From Micromonospora sp. Llam0 (lineage in GTDB: Bacteria; Actinomycetota; Actinomycetes; Mycobacteriales; Micromonosporaceae): a stretch of 64,000 nucleotides of DNA. The notes under the pieces are model-generated. The model saw only the letters and a list, made by a program, of their open reading frames with translations. It was not told the origin of the DNA and did not search any database. The translations under genes and the position numbers were made by a program. The stretch is taken from NCBI RefSeq assembly GCF_003751085.1, contig NZ_RJJY01000001.1, positions 1,860,001 through 1,924,000 of the forward strand, written 5' to 3'. Shown here piece after piece: positions 59,345 through 64,000 of the stretch (the first letter of the stretch is position 1; each line of letters opens with the position of its first letter).

Positions 59345-61756
59345 TCACCGTACGGTCACCTCGGTGGCCAGCCGGCGTCGGTGGTCGACCTGTCGCTGGG
59401 CGCCGACCAGCCGGACCGCGACCCGGTGACGGACGTCGGTGCTCGACGCGGCCAGCCGCAGCTCCAGGTCGCCGGGCTCGACGACCCGCCGCCCGTCCCG
59501 CCCGGTGAAACACGACAGGTCGGCGGAGAAGTCGAACTCGACCCAGCGCGCCTGGCCAGCCTGCAACGGCACCCGGGCGTACCCGACCAGCCGGATCACC
59601 GGTCGGGTGACCTGCGCCACCGGATCGTGCAGGTACAGCTGGACGATCTCACTGCCCGCCCGGTCACCGGTGTTGCGTACCCGCAGCCGGATCCGCAGCG
59701 TCCCGTCGGTGCCGATCTGCGCCGGGGCCGCACCCCAGCCGTGCTCGACCCCGTCGACCAGCGGCGTCGACCACTCGAACGAGGTGTACGACAGGCCGTG
59801 GCCGAACGGGTACAGCGGACCGGGATCCACGTTGCTCACCTCGGTCCGGTGCCCGAGCAGCGGGCTGAGGTAGCTGGTCGGCTGGCCGCCGGCCAGCCGG
59901 GGAACCCCGATCGGCAACCTGCCGGACGGGCAGATCCGGCCGCTGAGCACACCGGCGACCGCGCCGCCTCCCTCGGCGCCGGGGAAGAACACCTGCACCA
60001 CCCCGGCCAGCCGGTCGGCGTACCGGCCGAGCGCGTACGGGCGTCCGGTCAGCAGTACCAGCACCACCGGAGTGCCGGTGGCGACCAACGCCTCGATCAA
60101 CTCACCCTGCCGTCCGGGCAGTTCCAGGTCGGTGGCGTCGCAGCCCTCGCCGGAGGTCCCGGCGCCGAACAGCCCGGCCCGGTCCCCGACCACCGCGACA
60201 CAGACGTCGGCCCGCGCCGCGGCGTCTGCGGCCACCACGATGCCCGGGGTGTCCTGCCCGTCCACCGGGCCGGTGGCGACGTGTTCGATGGCCGCCGCAG
60301 GCAGTTCGGCCCGCAGCGCGGCCAGGACGGTCTCCATCGGAGGCTGGTCCCCGATGCCGGCCGGGACGGTACCGACGTGGCTGGGGAACGTGTAGCAGCC
60401 CAACAACCCGGCGACCGAGTCGGCCAGCGGTCCGACCACCGCGATGCGGCCCCGCTCGGGCAGCGGGAGGACGGCGTCGTTGGCCAGCAGCACCACCGAT
60501 TCCTCGGCCAGCCGCCGGGCCAGGTCCCGGTTCGCCGGCGGGTCCAGGTCGATCCCAGGCCCAGCAGACCGCCCGCCCGCCTCGCTCGTGCGGTCCACGC
60601 CGGCCAGCGCCGGTGGCACCGGATCCCAGTCCGGGTCGAGCAACCCCAGCTCACACTTCTGCCGCAGGACGCGGGTGACGGCCCGGTCGACCACCGACTC
60701 CGGTACGGCGCCCTTCCGGACCGCCTCGACGAGCGGGGCACCGTAGCACCGTACCGCCGGCAGTTCGACGTCGACCCCGGCGCTGAGCGCCAGGGCGGCG
60801 GCGGTACTGGGACCGTCGGCCACCCGGTGCAGCAGTTCCAGGAACGAGACACCGAAGTAGTCCGCGACCACGGTGCCGGTGAACCCCCAGCGGCCCCGGA
60901 GCAGATCGGTGAGCAGACCGCCGTCCGCCGCCGCCGGGACGCCGTCCACCTCCGCGTACGAGTGCATCACCGACCGGGCGCCGCCGTCGCGGACGGCCAT
61001 CTCGAACGGTGGGAGCAGGACGTCGGCGAACTCCCGCGGGCCGACCGACACCGGCCCGAAGTTGCGCCCCGCCCGGGAGGCCGAGTAACCGGCGAAGTGC
61101 TTGAGGGTGGCCACCACCCCGGCCGATTCCAGCCCGCGTACGTATGCGGTGCCGATCGTGGCGACCAGGTACGGATCCTCGCCGATGGTCTCCTCGGTGC
61201 GACCCCAGCGGGGGTCCCTGGCCACGTCGAGCACCGGGGCCAGTCCCTGGTGCACCCCGACCGACCGCATGTCCTGCCCGATCCGTCCGGCCATCTGCGC
61301 CACCAGGTCGGGGTCGAAGCTGGCACCCCAGGCCAGTGGGGTCGGGTACACGGTGGCGCCCCAGGTCATGAACCCGGTCAGGCACTCCTCGTGGATCAGC
61401 GCGGGAATACCGAACCGGTTGCCGGAGACGATCTCGGCCTGCAGTCGGAGTAGCGCGCGGGCGCCGTCGGCCGGAGTCACCGCTGCGGTGCCGAACGGTC
61501 GGGTCAACTGCCCCAGGCCGGTATGCAGCAGGTCGGCCCAGTCGACCGACTCGTCGACCAGGTCATGCTGCAGCGGGGCCATGTCGTCGATCGAGGCGTT
61601 GGCGCCTCGCCAGTAGCTGTACAGCTGTGCGATCTTCTCCGTCAGCGACATCCGACTGAGCAGGTCGAACACCCGTTCCTCCACCGGTAGGGTGGGTTCG
61701 CGCCACGGCGCTGACCGGTTGGGGGCCTCGTCCAGGGCATGGTCCTTGCCGCTCAC
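59345..61756 (-). CDS. GH3 beta-glycosidase (beta-glucosidase/xylosidase type)
   Basis: An 803-residue protein. GTG 61756 is chosen because AGGAGG sits six bases upstream; the longer frame to 62062 is not supported. The TIM-barrel half has IPALIHEECLTGFMTWGATV, VGVHQGLAPVLDVARDPRWG, ATLKHFAGY and the nucleophile Asp in GTVVADYFGVSFL. The alpha/beta sandwich follows (ESVVLLANDAVLPLPERGRI, GEGCDATDLELPGRQ) and a fibronectin-III-like end (RLRVRNTGDRAGSEIVQLYL). There is no signal peptide, so it should cleave imported oligosaccharides in the cytoplasm. It is divergent from a LacI repressor gene with operator-like palindromes between them. Confidence 0.92.
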   Translation of the reverse strand: MSGKDHALDEAPNRSAPWREPTLPVEERVFDLLSRMSLTEKIAQLYSYWRGANASIDDMAPLQHDLVDESVDWADLLHTGLGQLTRPFGTAAVTPADGARALLRLQAEIVSGNRFGIPALIHEECLTGFMTWGATVYPTPLAWGASFDPDLVAQMAGRIGQDMRSVGVHQGLAPVLDVARDPRWGRTEETIGEDPYLVATIGTAYVRGLESAGVVATLKHFAGYSASRAGRNFGPVSVGPREFADVLLPPFEMAVRDGGARSVMHSYAEVDGVPAAADGGLLTDLLRGRWGFTGTVVADYFGVSFLELLHRVADGPSTAAALALSAGVDVELPAVRCYGAPLVEAVRKGAVPESVVDRAVTRVLRQKCELGLLDPDWDPVPPALAGVDRTSEAGGRSAGPGIDLDPPANRDLARRLAEESVVLLANDAVLPLPERGRIAVVGPLADSVAGLLGCYTFPSHVGTVPAGIGDQPPMETVLAALRAELPAAAIEHVATGPVDGQDTPGIVVAADAAARADVCVAVVGDRAGLFGAGTSGEGCDATDLELPGRQGELIEALVATGTPVVLVLLTGRPYALGRYADRLAGVVQVFFPGAEGGGAVAGVLSGRICPSGRLPIGVPRLAGGQPTSYLSPLLGHRTEVSNVDPGPLYPFGHGLSYTSFEWSTPLVDGVEHGWGAAPAQIGTDGTLRIRLRVRNTGDRAGSEIVQLYLHDPVAQVTRPVIRLVGYARVPLQAGQARWVEFDFSADLSCFTGRDGRRVVEPGDLELRLAASSTDVRHRVAVRLVGAQRQVDHRRRLATEVTVR

Positions 61757-61829
61757 CGGCAGCCTCCTGTCGATCGTCTCCGCGCCAGTCTGATCCCGGC
61801 GTCGCCGGACCGTCGCGCCTGTTTTCCGA

Positions 61830-61847
61830 CATGTTTCCGGAAACTTG
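61830..61847. promoter_or_regulatory. Candidate LacI-family operator (GTTTCCGGAAAC core)
   Basis: An 18-base near-palindrome, CATGTTTCCGGAAACTTG, with a perfect 12-base core and the central CG step typical of LacI-family operators. It lies about 75 bases upstream of the GH3 start on the divergent side. Confidence 0.6.
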
Positions 61848-61960
61848 CGGCCCCGTCGAGATCCGGCGGCCCACAGTTTGCTGGCAGTGTCCGGGTATGC
61901 TCCCGCATCGTGGGGTCCGGAAGTGCCCCACCCGGCTGTCGATTGGGCCACCGCCGCCGG

Positions 61961-61974
61961 ATGTTCCGGAAAGT
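61961..61974. promoter_or_regulatory. Second, shorter operator-like palindrome (TTCCGGAA core)
   Basis: The TTCCGGAA core of the first site is repeated at 61964-61971 inside ATGTTCCGGAAAGT. The two sites lie about 129 bases apart centre to centre, which would allow looping by a tetrameric repressor. Confidence 0.45.
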
Positions 61975-62149
61975 TCCAGTCGGCGGCGTGGCCGACCCGG
62001 TCGCCGGCATCGGCGACACACCGCCGGCCGGGTCGATGCCAAGCGTTTTCCAACTGCGGCAAGATAGGGCCCGGACTCGGCGTACGGAGCCGGACCGGCT
62101 GGCGGAAGGTTCGGCCGTACGCTGAAGCCTCGACGAAGGAGCTGCTGCC

Positions 62150-63172
62150 GTGACGGTCGATGAAGGACGCAGGATCACGATCACCGCGATCGCCCAGGAA
62201 GCCGGTGTCTCCGTGCCGACCGTGTCACGGGTGCTCAACGGCCGCAACGACGTCGCCCCGCAGACCCGTGAACGGGTCGAGGAGCTGCTGCGCCGGCACG
62301 GCTACCGACGGCGGGCGACCCGGTCCCGCGCCGGTGCCAGCCTGATCGACCTGGTCTTCAACGACCTGGACAGCCCGTGGGCCGTGGAGATAATCCGCGG
62401 CGTGGAGGATGTCGCGCACGCGGCCGGGGTCGGTACCGTCGTCTCCGCCATTCACCGCCGGTCCGCGTCGACCCGGCAGTGGCTGCAGAACCTGCGTACC
62501 CGGGCCACCGACGGTGTCATCCTGGTCACCAGTGAACTCGCTCCGCCGTTGCACACCGAACTGCGACGGCTCAACGTACCGATGGTGCTGGTCGACCCGG
62601 CCGGCGTCCCGAGCCTGGACATCCCCACCATCGGGGCTACCAACTGGGCCGGCGGACTGCGGGCGACGGAACACCTCATCTCCCTGGGACACCGCAGGAT
62701 CGGCTTCATCGCCGGTCCGCCCCGGCTGCTGTGCAGCCGGGCCCGGCTCGACGGGTACCGGGCCGCGCTGGAGGCGGCCGAGATCCCGCTGCGCCCCGAG
62801 TACGTCGTCCCCGGCGACTTCTACCATGAGTCCGGCTTCGCTGGCGCGGCCGCGTTGCTCGACCTCGACGAACCACCGAGTGCGATCTTCGCGTCCAGCG
62901 ACCAGATGGCCCTCGGCGCCTACGAAGCCCTGCGGCAACGCGGTCTGCGGGTCCCGGACGACGTCAGCGTGGTCGGCTTCGACGACCTGCCCGAGGTGCA
63001 GTGGTCGTCACCGCCGCTGACCACGGTGCGCCAGCCGCTGGCCGAGATGGGGCTGCTGGCGGCGCGGACGGTGCTGCGTCTGGCGCAGGGGGAACCGCTG
63101 GAGACGCCGCGGGTGGAGCTCGCCACGGAGCTGGTCGTGCGGGACAGCTGCGCGCCGTACCAGGAGCTGTGA
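62150..63172 (+). CDS. LacI-family transcriptional repressor
   Basis: A 340-residue protein from GTG 62150 (AAGGAG eight bases upstream). The helix-turn-helix and hinge are classic: TITAIAQEAGVSVPTVSRVL followed by NGRNDVAPQTRERVEELLRR. The periplasmic-binding-like sensor domain then runs from LIDLVFNDLDSPWAVEIIRG to the end, with SLGHRRIGFIAGP, AIFASSDQMALGAYEALRQR and DVSVVGFDDLPEVQWSSPPL. It probably represses the divergent GH3 gene and itself, with an oligosaccharide or its product as inducer. The specific sugar is unknown. Confidence 0.92.
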   Translation: MTVDEGRRITITAIAQEAGVSVPTVSRVLNGRNDVAPQTRERVEELLRRHGYRRRATRSRAGASLIDLVFNDLDSPWAVEIIRGVEDVAHAAGVGTVVSAIHRRSASTRQWLQNLRTRATDGVILVTSELAPPLHTELRRLNVPMVLVDPAGVPSLDIPTIGATNWAGGLRATEHLISLGHRRIGFIAGPPRLLCSRARLDGYRAALEAAEIPLRPEYVVPGDFYHESGFAGAAALLDLDEPPSAIFASSDQMALGAYEALRQRGLRVPDDVSVVGFDDLPEVQWSSPPLTTVRQPLAEMGLLAARTVLRLAQGEPLETPRVELATELVVRDSCAPYQEL

Positions 63173-63199
63173 TCCTCAGCCGGTCCCGGTTCACGCGAG

Positions 63200-63224
63200 G
63201 TTAGTGACGATCCGCCCCGGGTAC
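63200..63224 (+). promoter_or_regulatory. SigB/SigF-type promoter, GTTA-N15-GGGTAC
   Basis: GTTA (63200-63203), a 15-base spacer and GGGTAC (63219-63224), 65 bases before the repeat-peptide start. A single -35 mismatch against GTTT. Confidence 0.55.
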
Positions 63225-63289
63225 CACCCGCAGGCAGGACCGTGCCGGCGCGAAACCGGCGCGCGTCGACCGACCCGCAGGGGGCAGCC

Positions 63290-63568
63290 ATGACACTTGA
63301 CGACGACGACATCCGCAGCACCGGGCCCGCAGCGGGTCACGGCCCCGCTGACGGTGGGGCGAATCCGGCTGGGCGTGACGGTGGCGCCGACGGTGGTGCC
63401 GGTCCGAAGGCGCAGGAGGGCCCGGCTGACGGTGGGGCGAATCCGGCTGGGCGTGACGGTGGCGCCGACGGTGGTGCCGGTCCGAAGGCGCAGGAGGGCC
63501 CGGCTGACGGTGGGGCGAATCCGGCTGGGCGTGACGGTGGCGCCGACGGTGGGGCGAGCCGGCGTTGA
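63290..63568 (+). CDS. Short repetitive Asp/Gly/Ala-rich peptide, possible substrate or precursor of the adjoining cupin oxygenase
   Basis: A 92-residue frame from ATG 63290 with CAGGGGG six bases upstream. An acidic leader-like start (MTLDDDDIRSTGPAAGH) precedes nearly three copies of a 26-residue unit reading GPADGGANPAGRDGG then ADGGAGPKAQE; the last copy is truncated and ends ASRR. There is no signal peptide, hydrophobic segment or cysteine. Its stop overlaps the start of the cupin gene (TTGA), which supports this frame over the other open frames through the repeat. I know no family by sequence alone. Leader plus repeated core next to a modifying enzyme suggests a RiPP-like precursor or a hydroxylation substrate (inference). 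Confidence 0.6.
   Translation: MTLDDDDIRSTGPAAGHGPADGGANPAGRDGGADGGAGPKAQEGPADGGANPAGRDGGADGGAGPKAQEGPADGGANPAGRDGGADGGASRR
63341..63565 (+). repeat. Tandem repeat, 78-bp unit, 2.9 copies
   Basis: Units start at 63341, 63419 and 63497. Copies 1 and 2 differ at one base (GGCCCCG versus GGCCCGG); copy 3 matches until the sequence turns into GGGGCGAGCC near its end. As 78 is a multiple of three, every reading frame stays open through the array, creating long shadow frames on both strands. Confidence 0.95.
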
Positions 63569-64000
63569 CCCAGCTGCCCACCGCGTCACGCGGTGCCGGC
63601 ACCGGCGGACCCGGACTCACCGACCGGACGCAGATCGCCACGTCACCAGGCCCGCCGGGCGGTGCGGACGCGTCCCGCCGCCCGGCGGCGCTGACCCGGT
63701 GCGTTGCCGTGGATCCGGCGAGCTTCGCGGATGTCTACTGGGGGCGTGAACCGCTGCTGTCCCGCGCCGTCGATCTGGGCGGCCCCGCCGGATTCACCGA
63801 TCTGCTCGACCGCCCCGCAGCCGACCAACTGCTGAGCCAGCACGGCCTGCGTACCCCGTTCGTCCGGGTGGCCCGGGACGGCGAGGTGCTCGCGGAGCCG
63901 ACCTACACCGCCGGCGCCGGCGCCGGCGCCGAAATCGACGACCAGGTGCTCGACGAGCGGGTGTTGGGCCTGTACGCGGACGGCGCCACCCTTGTCCTGC
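63565..64000 (+). CDS. JmjC/cupin domain oxygenase (ROXA-like), 5' part; runs off the window
   Basis: A frame from TTG 63565 stays open to the window edge (145 codons visible). About 45 disordered residues are followed by the start of a Cupin_4/JmjC-type domain: FADVYWGREPLLSRAVDLGG, FTDLLDRPAADQLLSQHGLR, TPFVRVARDGEV and VLDERVLGLYADGATLVL. In 2-oxoglutarate-dependent ribosomal-oxygenase relatives, this last strand comes shortly before the iron-binding HxD motif, which would lie beyond the window. It should hydroxylate a peptide or protein side chain. The TTGA overlap with the repeat-peptide stop makes that peptide the obvious candidate substrate. Iron ligands could not be checked. Confidence 0.72.
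   Translation, partial: MTQLPTASRGAGTGGPGLTDRTQIATSPGPPGGADASRRPAALTRCVAVDPASFADVYWGREPLLSRAVDLGGPAGFTDLLDRPAADQLLSQHGLRTPFVRVARDGEVLAEPTYTAGAGAGAEIDDQVLDERVLGLYADGATLVL

Follow-up and report, generated by a model that had tools for sequence, protein, structure and literature searches.

An Asp-rich repeat peptide gene overlapping a JmjC_2 oxygenase gene in Micromonospora sp. Llam0: a candidate dedicated substrate with relatives across the phylum

Two overlapping genes

The 64,000-nucleotide stretch of Micromonospora sp. Llam0 analysed here ("the window": contig NZ_RJJY01000001.1, positions 1,860,001 to 1,924,000, assembly GCF_003751085.1) ends in a pair of forward-strand genes. The first (63290..63568; ATG at 63290, TGA at 63566–63568) encodes an Asp-rich repeat peptide of 92 amino acids and the second a JmjC_2 (PF08007) oxygenase, hereafter also called the cupin. 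The 5' part of the oxygenase gene occupies 63565..64000; the rest lies beyond the window, to genome position 1924896, and the product is 443 amino acids long when counted from a TTG codon. We propose that the peptide is probably a dedicated substrate of the oxygenase, hydroxylated many times over at the Asp residues of its repeats, and that the two genes constitute a pair resembling those of ribosomally synthesized and post-translationally modified peptides (RiPPs).

The product of the peptide gene begins MTLDDDDIRSTGPAAGHGPADGGANPAGRDGGADGGAGPKAQEGPADGG. An acidic, leader-like head (MTLDDDDIRSTG, 63290..63325) precedes three 20-residue units, the first of which (GPADGGANPAGRDGGADGGA) is encoded by 63341..63400, the second by 63419..63478 and the third by 63497..63556; they are joined by two GPKAQE linkers (63401–63418 and 63479–63496). 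Tandem Repeats Finder places a repeat with a period of 78 nt, 2.7 copies and 99% matches at 63341–63552. An earlier note on this DNA had described a 92-codon gene with an acidic head and three near-identical units of 26 residues; gene, head and near-identity stand, whereas the third 26-mer is incomplete, the array consisting of 20-residue units with six-residue linkers. The overlap of the peptide stop with the cupin start, also put forward there, is present at the locus, where the TTG (63565–63567) and the TGA share the letters TTGA. It is not peculiar to this strain: the peptide-cupin pair occurs in each of the seven genomes examined from the genus, and in 7/7 a TTG or GTG in the cupin frame overlaps the peptide TGA. 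One database gene call for the oxygenase (P0115) starts 9 nt downstream of the TTG, which is nevertheless a plausible start codon.

The repeat open reading frame (ORF) is a real protein-coding gene, since among three congeners each pairwise comparison gives 18–22 synonymous and 2 non-synonymous differences in the peptide frame, corresponding to a ratio of non-synonymous to synonymous change (pN/pS) of 0.03–0.04, and both other frames diverge. In those two frames the same three congeners show 19–24 non-synonymous and 0–2 synonymous changes per pair, which rules out a different reading frame through the array, one of the outcomes that the earlier note had named as damaging to its proposal. Within each of three genomes the repeat copies are near-identical at the DNA level, and at silent sites they differ between genomes (window 63341–63556, loci L004 and L005); they therefore appear to have been homogenised, by concerted evolution, under strong constraint at the protein level.

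No Pfam family was found for the peptide of the window or for five varied relatives, and NCBIfam gave none for the window's peptide and, among the five relatives, one chance match (E 2.7). When the window's peptide was compared with 5.8 billion proteins, 113 matches were obtained (7985 candidates scored), all but two of them unnamed or called "hypothetical protein", and a second protein search with a relative's peptide as query gave the same picture among the 120 matches listed. Two homologues of the peptide, from Leifsonia poae and Actinoplanes philippinensis (P0016 and P0111), carry the name "BatC protein", for which one search of the literature gave no reason.

The cupin matches PF08007 with 101 bits against a cut-off of 22. 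Once the sequence was extended to the right, the HxD...H motif proposed in the earlier note was found intact: H187, D189 and H255, which we take to be the iron ligands, and K202, presumably the Lys that binds 2-oxoglutarate (2OG), were assigned by alignment to NO66, are encoded beyond the window and are kept in 127/127 aligned cupins (≥35% identity). By sequence and by structure the closest solved relatives are NO66, then MINA53, then YcfD and YxbC. An AlphaFold2 model of the database copy (440 amino acids) has a mean predicted local distance difference test score of 88.4, with low confidence at residues 3–34; its alignment to NO66 spans residues 34–440, and its predicted C-terminal strand-helix (winged-helix-like) domain aligns to that of NO66. 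Because the ligands and the 2OG lysine are kept and the predicted fold is of the NO66 type, activity of the cupin as an Fe(II)/2OG oxygenase is very probable. Homologues number 5669 at E ≤ 1e-30 among 7996 scored; from named ones at 67–71% identity the genus would probably be Solwaraspora. Of the 120 homologues listed, those that bear a name go mostly by "cupin", "JmjC domain-containing", "ribosomal protein L16 Arg81 hydroxylase" or "lysine-specific demethylase/histidyl-hydroxylase NO66", and close relatives adjoin a repeat peptide.

Distribution of the pair and diversity of the repeats

The cupin is present in 85/150 genomes of the family (E ≤ 1e-20), 87/394 of the class (E ≤ 1e-30) and 27/296 of the phylum (E ≤ 1e-40). 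Loci were fetched for 70/97 match rows of the family search and 70/88 rows of the class search, a few genomes being in both. The count below covers 137 loci, namely the 70 from the family search and 67 further ones from the class search (L003–L141, minus L074, which is from the same genome as L039, and L073, itself positive). A locus was called positive when an open sense frame no more than 800 nt upstream of the cupin held at least four D[GA][GADST] motifs within 50 residues. This motif criterion was adopted after the data had been seen, in place of an Asp-content criterion that missed plain cases and was positive in 36/1054 control windows. Among the omitted rows are broken cupin pieces of genome G062, where three overlapping matches follow one another along the cupin (C1:8303304–8304594), which may be frameshifted.

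An Asp-repeat ORF was found upstream of 44/44 cupins at ≥60% identity, 34/35 at 50–60%, 25/25 at 45–50% and 12/12 at 40–45%, so that 115 of the 116 cupins at ≥40% identity have an ORF of the DG/DA type directly upstream; among distant cupins the figures are 4/7 (36–40%) and 5/14 (below 36%). One distant locus, L072, passes at the lower threshold of four motifs, which may be chance. The antisense strand gave 0/137, and other windows of the same loci, taken on both strands, 5/1054. With a stricter cut of five motifs the result is 111/116 at ≥40% identity and 1/1054 among controls. The genomes are related and are not independent samples, and these counts are to be read as conservation, not as p-values. 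Cupins lacking a repeat gene, which the earlier note had regarded as telling against its proposal, are almost confined to distant homologues (1/116, 3/7 and 9/14 at ≥40%, 36–40% and below 36% identity). A further set of named loci, with Micromonospora, Salinispora, Actinoplanes, Phytohabitans, Asanoa, Modestobacter and Blastococcus among them, was positive in 79/80 cases, the miss having just 139 nt of upstream sequence.

In a cupin tree a clade of 118 rows (support 92) has 117 labelled with the peptide, the exception being L060. The labels come from a looser count, in which weak grounds sufficed for the label "pep" on the distant L070, L072 and L140 and L134 is labelled "none" despite a DAD repeat, and the tree was used for this clade and for the placing of family f29 only. 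When a relative's peptide served as the query, 23/101 genomes of the order matched, and a cupin adjoins the match in 23/23; sixteen of these were already cupin matches at adjacent coordinates, and in the other seven the cupin was found beside the peptide. The link of a repeat peptide with a JmjC/cupin_4 oxygenase, as the earlier note had it, thus holds both ways.

In other classes of the phylum a search gave 18 cupin matches in 17 genomes. Ten loci, with cupin identities of 34–41%, were fetched (L233, L235–L243) and an Asp-rich repetitive peptide was present in 10/10 on inspection, with an acidic head visible in nine and not seen in L241. Short repetitive genes beside this cupin family, a search for which the earlier note had suggested, are present at the loci inspected in these classes too. 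As regards carriage by mobile elements, phages were considered and rejected: 35 pattern matches in viral contigs included no relative by tblastn. Plasmid matches are distant (15 listed of 48 records, 34.6% identical).

The positions of Asp in the repeats were counted between Asp-free anchors (EG[PTVL]), and Asp is accordingly not presupposed by the pattern. In the commonest repeat type, Asp occupies position 5 in 158/163 intervals and D[GA][GA][AG]D occurs in 163/163 (79 loci). Fifty-four intervals of exactly 21 residues (24 loci) conform to EGPADGGA(T/N)PG(Q/G)(H/Q/R)DGGADG(S/G/A)A, and Asp fills positions 5, 14 and 18 in 54/54. Position 13, which adjoins one of these Asp residues, is variable (H 0.67, Q 0.20, R 0.11), and the conserved units of this type have no aromatic, Lys or Cys position. 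Repeats of a TDGD type occur in seven loci of family f29, which consists of two clades of cupins that differ in their repeat type, and the other classes have TDGDGTDG, DADASDAD, DTDTTD and DGTDQGV...GPRD types. As far as the sequences go, the feature common to all repeat types is Asp, for the most part with Gly, Ala, Ser or Thr as the next residue. The earlier note had singled out Asp, Asn, Gly and Arg; Asp and Gly are indeed conserved, together with Ala, whereas Asn and Arg are not conserved positions.

Some peptides depart from the usual size. Those of L028, L083, L105, L112 and L175 are much enlarged, with long DGGA-like or DRGVERGAD-like runs, and have ordinary cupins alongside. In genome G108 pieces of the peptide lie on two contigs (C9:110–283 and C35:18561–18692), one of them at a contig end, the assembly apparently having been interrupted by the repeat array.

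Acidic head, promoter and neighbourhood

Most peptides have near their start a head that fits L-x-D-D-D-[I/M]-x-T, which in several lineages is kept while the repeats change. A strict motif, [DNSTE][DENQS][DENS][ILMVF]x(1,2)[TS] within the first 26 amino acids, was found in 120/176 peptides, as compared with a mean of 4.0 and a maximum of 9 in shuffled sequences. The 176 peptides are automatic picks from 110/137 counted loci and 66/80 named loci, sets which share some strains, and the start picks are likewise automatic, some being wrong (36 heads were listed). The head is absent from a clade of 17 loci (families f29, f36, f21 and f44) and from L122, and the enzymes of these 18 headless loci lack some 5–8 residues ahead of the final helix in the C-terminal domain. 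Scored by regular expression, enzymes with a full C-terminus have 98 peptides with the head and 11 without, and those with a short C-terminus 2 with and 16 without. By eye, six of the 11 negatives do have a head (L024, L028, L036, L057, L068 and L088), L084 has a partial one, and L019, L052, L060 and L070 are not judgeable; the two positives with a short C-terminus, L104 and L111, are chance matches and headless by eye. Since head and C-terminal segment were lost together, albeit in one or two events only, this suggests that the C-terminal domain of the enzyme may bind the head of the peptide.

Upstream of the peptide gene in the window lies a promoter-like element, GGTTA-N15-GGGTA (63199..63223), starting 91 nt before the ATG. 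The motif (GTTT|GGTT|GTTA|GTGT)N12-17GGGTA recurs within 200 nt upstream of 88/176 peptide ORFs, compared with a mean of 1.1 and a maximum of 4 in 30 mononucleotide shuffles, and its GGGTA is most frequent 60–69 nt before the peptide start. We take these boxes to be an actinobacterial promoter of the SigB/SigF/SigH type, linked to stress, and expression of the pair probably depends on a stress sigma factor of the SigB/SigF type. The SigB-type promoter of the earlier note is thereby corroborated as an element, its sigma type being our assumption.

The pair appears to stand alone. Downstream of the cupin is a large gene of the FtsK/SpoIIIE family on the opposite strand. Upstream (59345–63172) a glycoside hydrolase family 3 gene is divergent from a gene for a LacI-type regulator; the latter is kept upstream within the genus and is not among the gene clusters widely shared by the neighbourhoods of 36 relatives. 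In these neighbourhoods, of about 9 kb each, no gene cluster other than cupin and peptide occurs in more than 14/36, and no conserved protease or exporter was found. A graspetide cluster would be expected to hold an ATP-grasp ligase; no Pfam match to one was obtained when six ORFs flanking the pair in this genome were scanned. An extended RiPP cluster on the downstream side was rejected in view of the strand of the next gene and the want of a widely conserved third gene, and the further maturation or export genes that the earlier note had anticipated past the window are not supported.

Proposed function and its alternatives

That the peptide-cupin pair is functional is nearly certain, and from comparison of the sequences we consider it very likely that the peptide is the substrate of the oxygenase. 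The nature of the reaction is less secure, and beta-hydroxylation of Asp is put forward with moderate confidence. The first gene would give a small Asp/Gly/Ala repeat protein with an acidic head, probably unstructured, and the second a JmjC Fe(II)/2OG oxygenase of the NO66/ROX type whose C-terminal domain is winged-helix-like. The oxygenase would bind the peptide, with the L-x-D-D-D-[I/M] head as an aid in most lineages, and would move from repeat to repeat, adding hydroxyl groups to the conserved Asp residues, probably at the beta carbon, to yield a multiply hydroxylated acidic peptide. Binding or buffering of metal ions could be a role of such a polyhydroxy-aspartyl product.

Several points weigh against this proposal. 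Gly and Ala are conserved as well (and Glu in the EGPADGG type), and conservation alone does not single out Asp. The entry titles of the solved relatives present them as enzymes that hydroxylate His or Arg in ribosomal proteins, not Asp-Gly repeats. Selection, pairing and promoter are equally to be expected if the peptide is a partner or regulator of the enzyme. The head is lacking in one clade and cannot be the sole recognition signal, its loss together with the C-terminal segment represents one or two events, and L117, of the short group, has a head-like NDDDTM stretch. L060 (55% identity) has a cupin without a detectable peptide; less settled are L052, with a partial frame only, and L019 and L171, cut by contig ends. 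The reverse query missed the known carriers G396 and G537 (peptides in L083 and L077), and peptides without a cupin could also have escaped it. In L124 and L126 (family f36, of the headless clade) an acidic non-repeat peptide with a common GPTxEPGA tail lies upstream of the cupin, possibly a degenerate or alternative partner. Finally, a secreted RiPP product is doubtful because no conserved protease or exporter accompanies the pair.

The alternative that survives best, though we regard it as unlikely, is that the oxygenase acts on the peptide with another outcome. It might use 2OG to form a crosslink or macrocycle, it might oxidise a residue other than Asp (the variable His/Gln/Arg, Pro or Gly), or hydroxylation might lead on to a further loss. 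In the 21-residue unit, position 13 adjoins an Asp invariant in 54/54 and could be such a site, and a 2OG oxygenase is reported to hydroxylate Lys in the repeat graspetide corallotide (PMC13097080). Against this, Asp is the sole reactive residue common to all repeat types seen, and the conserved units offer no aromatic, Lys or Cys position. Work by Xia et al. (JACS, 2025), to judge by its title alone, reportedly concerns 2OG macrocyclisation in RiPPs and could overlap with what is described here.

Less probable again is that the cupin truly oxygenates ribosomal proteins and that the small acidic protein, instead of being a substrate, is expressed with it to serve as inhibitor, pseudosubstrate, chaperone or metal donor. 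This would agree with NO66, MINA53 and YcfD as the closest solved relatives and with the names "ribosomal protein L16 Arg81 hydroxylase" or "NO66" on several of the 120 homologues listed; these names, however, are probably automatic, and an inhibitor would have no need of several near-identical repeats whose motif shifts with the enzyme clade. A non-coding or regulatory leader (an attenuator, or a tandem repeat grown by slippage) open by chance might explain a 78-nt DNA repeat with copies almost identical within each genome, yet it has next to no probability and is already contradicted by the pN/pS of 0.03–0.04, by a peptide sequence kept while synonymous sites change and by related peptides from Micromonosporaceae to other classes.

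Dedicated hydroxylation of the repeat peptide, the reading that we favour, has partial precedents. FIH, an asparaginyl/aspartyl hydroxylase of ankyrin repeats, is a JmjC enzyme that acts on a recurring short motif in the folded repeat domains of other proteins; the cupin matches its fold more weakly (rank 41), and the repeat peptide here would be dedicated and is probably unstructured. The ROX-type PF08007 enzymes NO66, MINA53 and YcfD/RoxA share the predicted fold over nearly the full length, C-terminal domain included, with HxD...H and the 2OG lysine; unlike these, whose substrates are ribosomal proteins according to their entry titles, the present enzyme has a repeat peptide gene coupled directly upstream. 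A genetically encoded candidate precursor next to a modifying enzyme, as found here, is a RiPP trait. The clusters of biphenomycin, with BipG (PMC12707348), and of corallotide, a large peptide that carries five repeats of a modified motif (PMC13097080), likewise combine a small precursor with a 2OG oxygenase; they differ in having other modifying enzymes (radical SAM and MNIO enzymes; a graspetide synthetase), whereas here a lone oxygenase is found with no widely conserved third gene. A 2025 study of PF08007 JmjC proteins with RRE-like domains (PMC12710340) says, in the part accessible, that bacterial homologues lie in RiPP-like contexts, so that the idea of bacterial JmjC_2 proteins in such contexts, a hint of peptide modification within the same Pfam family, is already in print. 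The same part gives no precursors beside the fish and algal JmjC proteins and names neither a repeat peptide nor an actinobacterial pair. Among the open-licence papers of the literature searched, no description of the peptide, its repeats or the phylum-wide pairing was found, the repeat strings occurring in one paper, by chance.

We may tentatively go further and picture a phylum-wide class of single-enzyme systems making stress-controlled poly-(beta-hydroxy)aspartyl peptides, in which a ROX-type JmjC oxygenase has a dedicated repetitive substrate, the products might be intracellular polymers that bind metals or report on oxygen and 2OG, and the motif would diversify with the enzyme. If the peptide is the substrate, some of the names carried by homologues mislead, and a large orphan family of oxygenases would gain a substrate that can be put to the test. 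Its many near-identical sites would also make it a handy model for repeated JmjC hydroxylation, and the clade in which head and C-terminal segment are both missing would offer a direct test of how such enzymes recognise their peptides.
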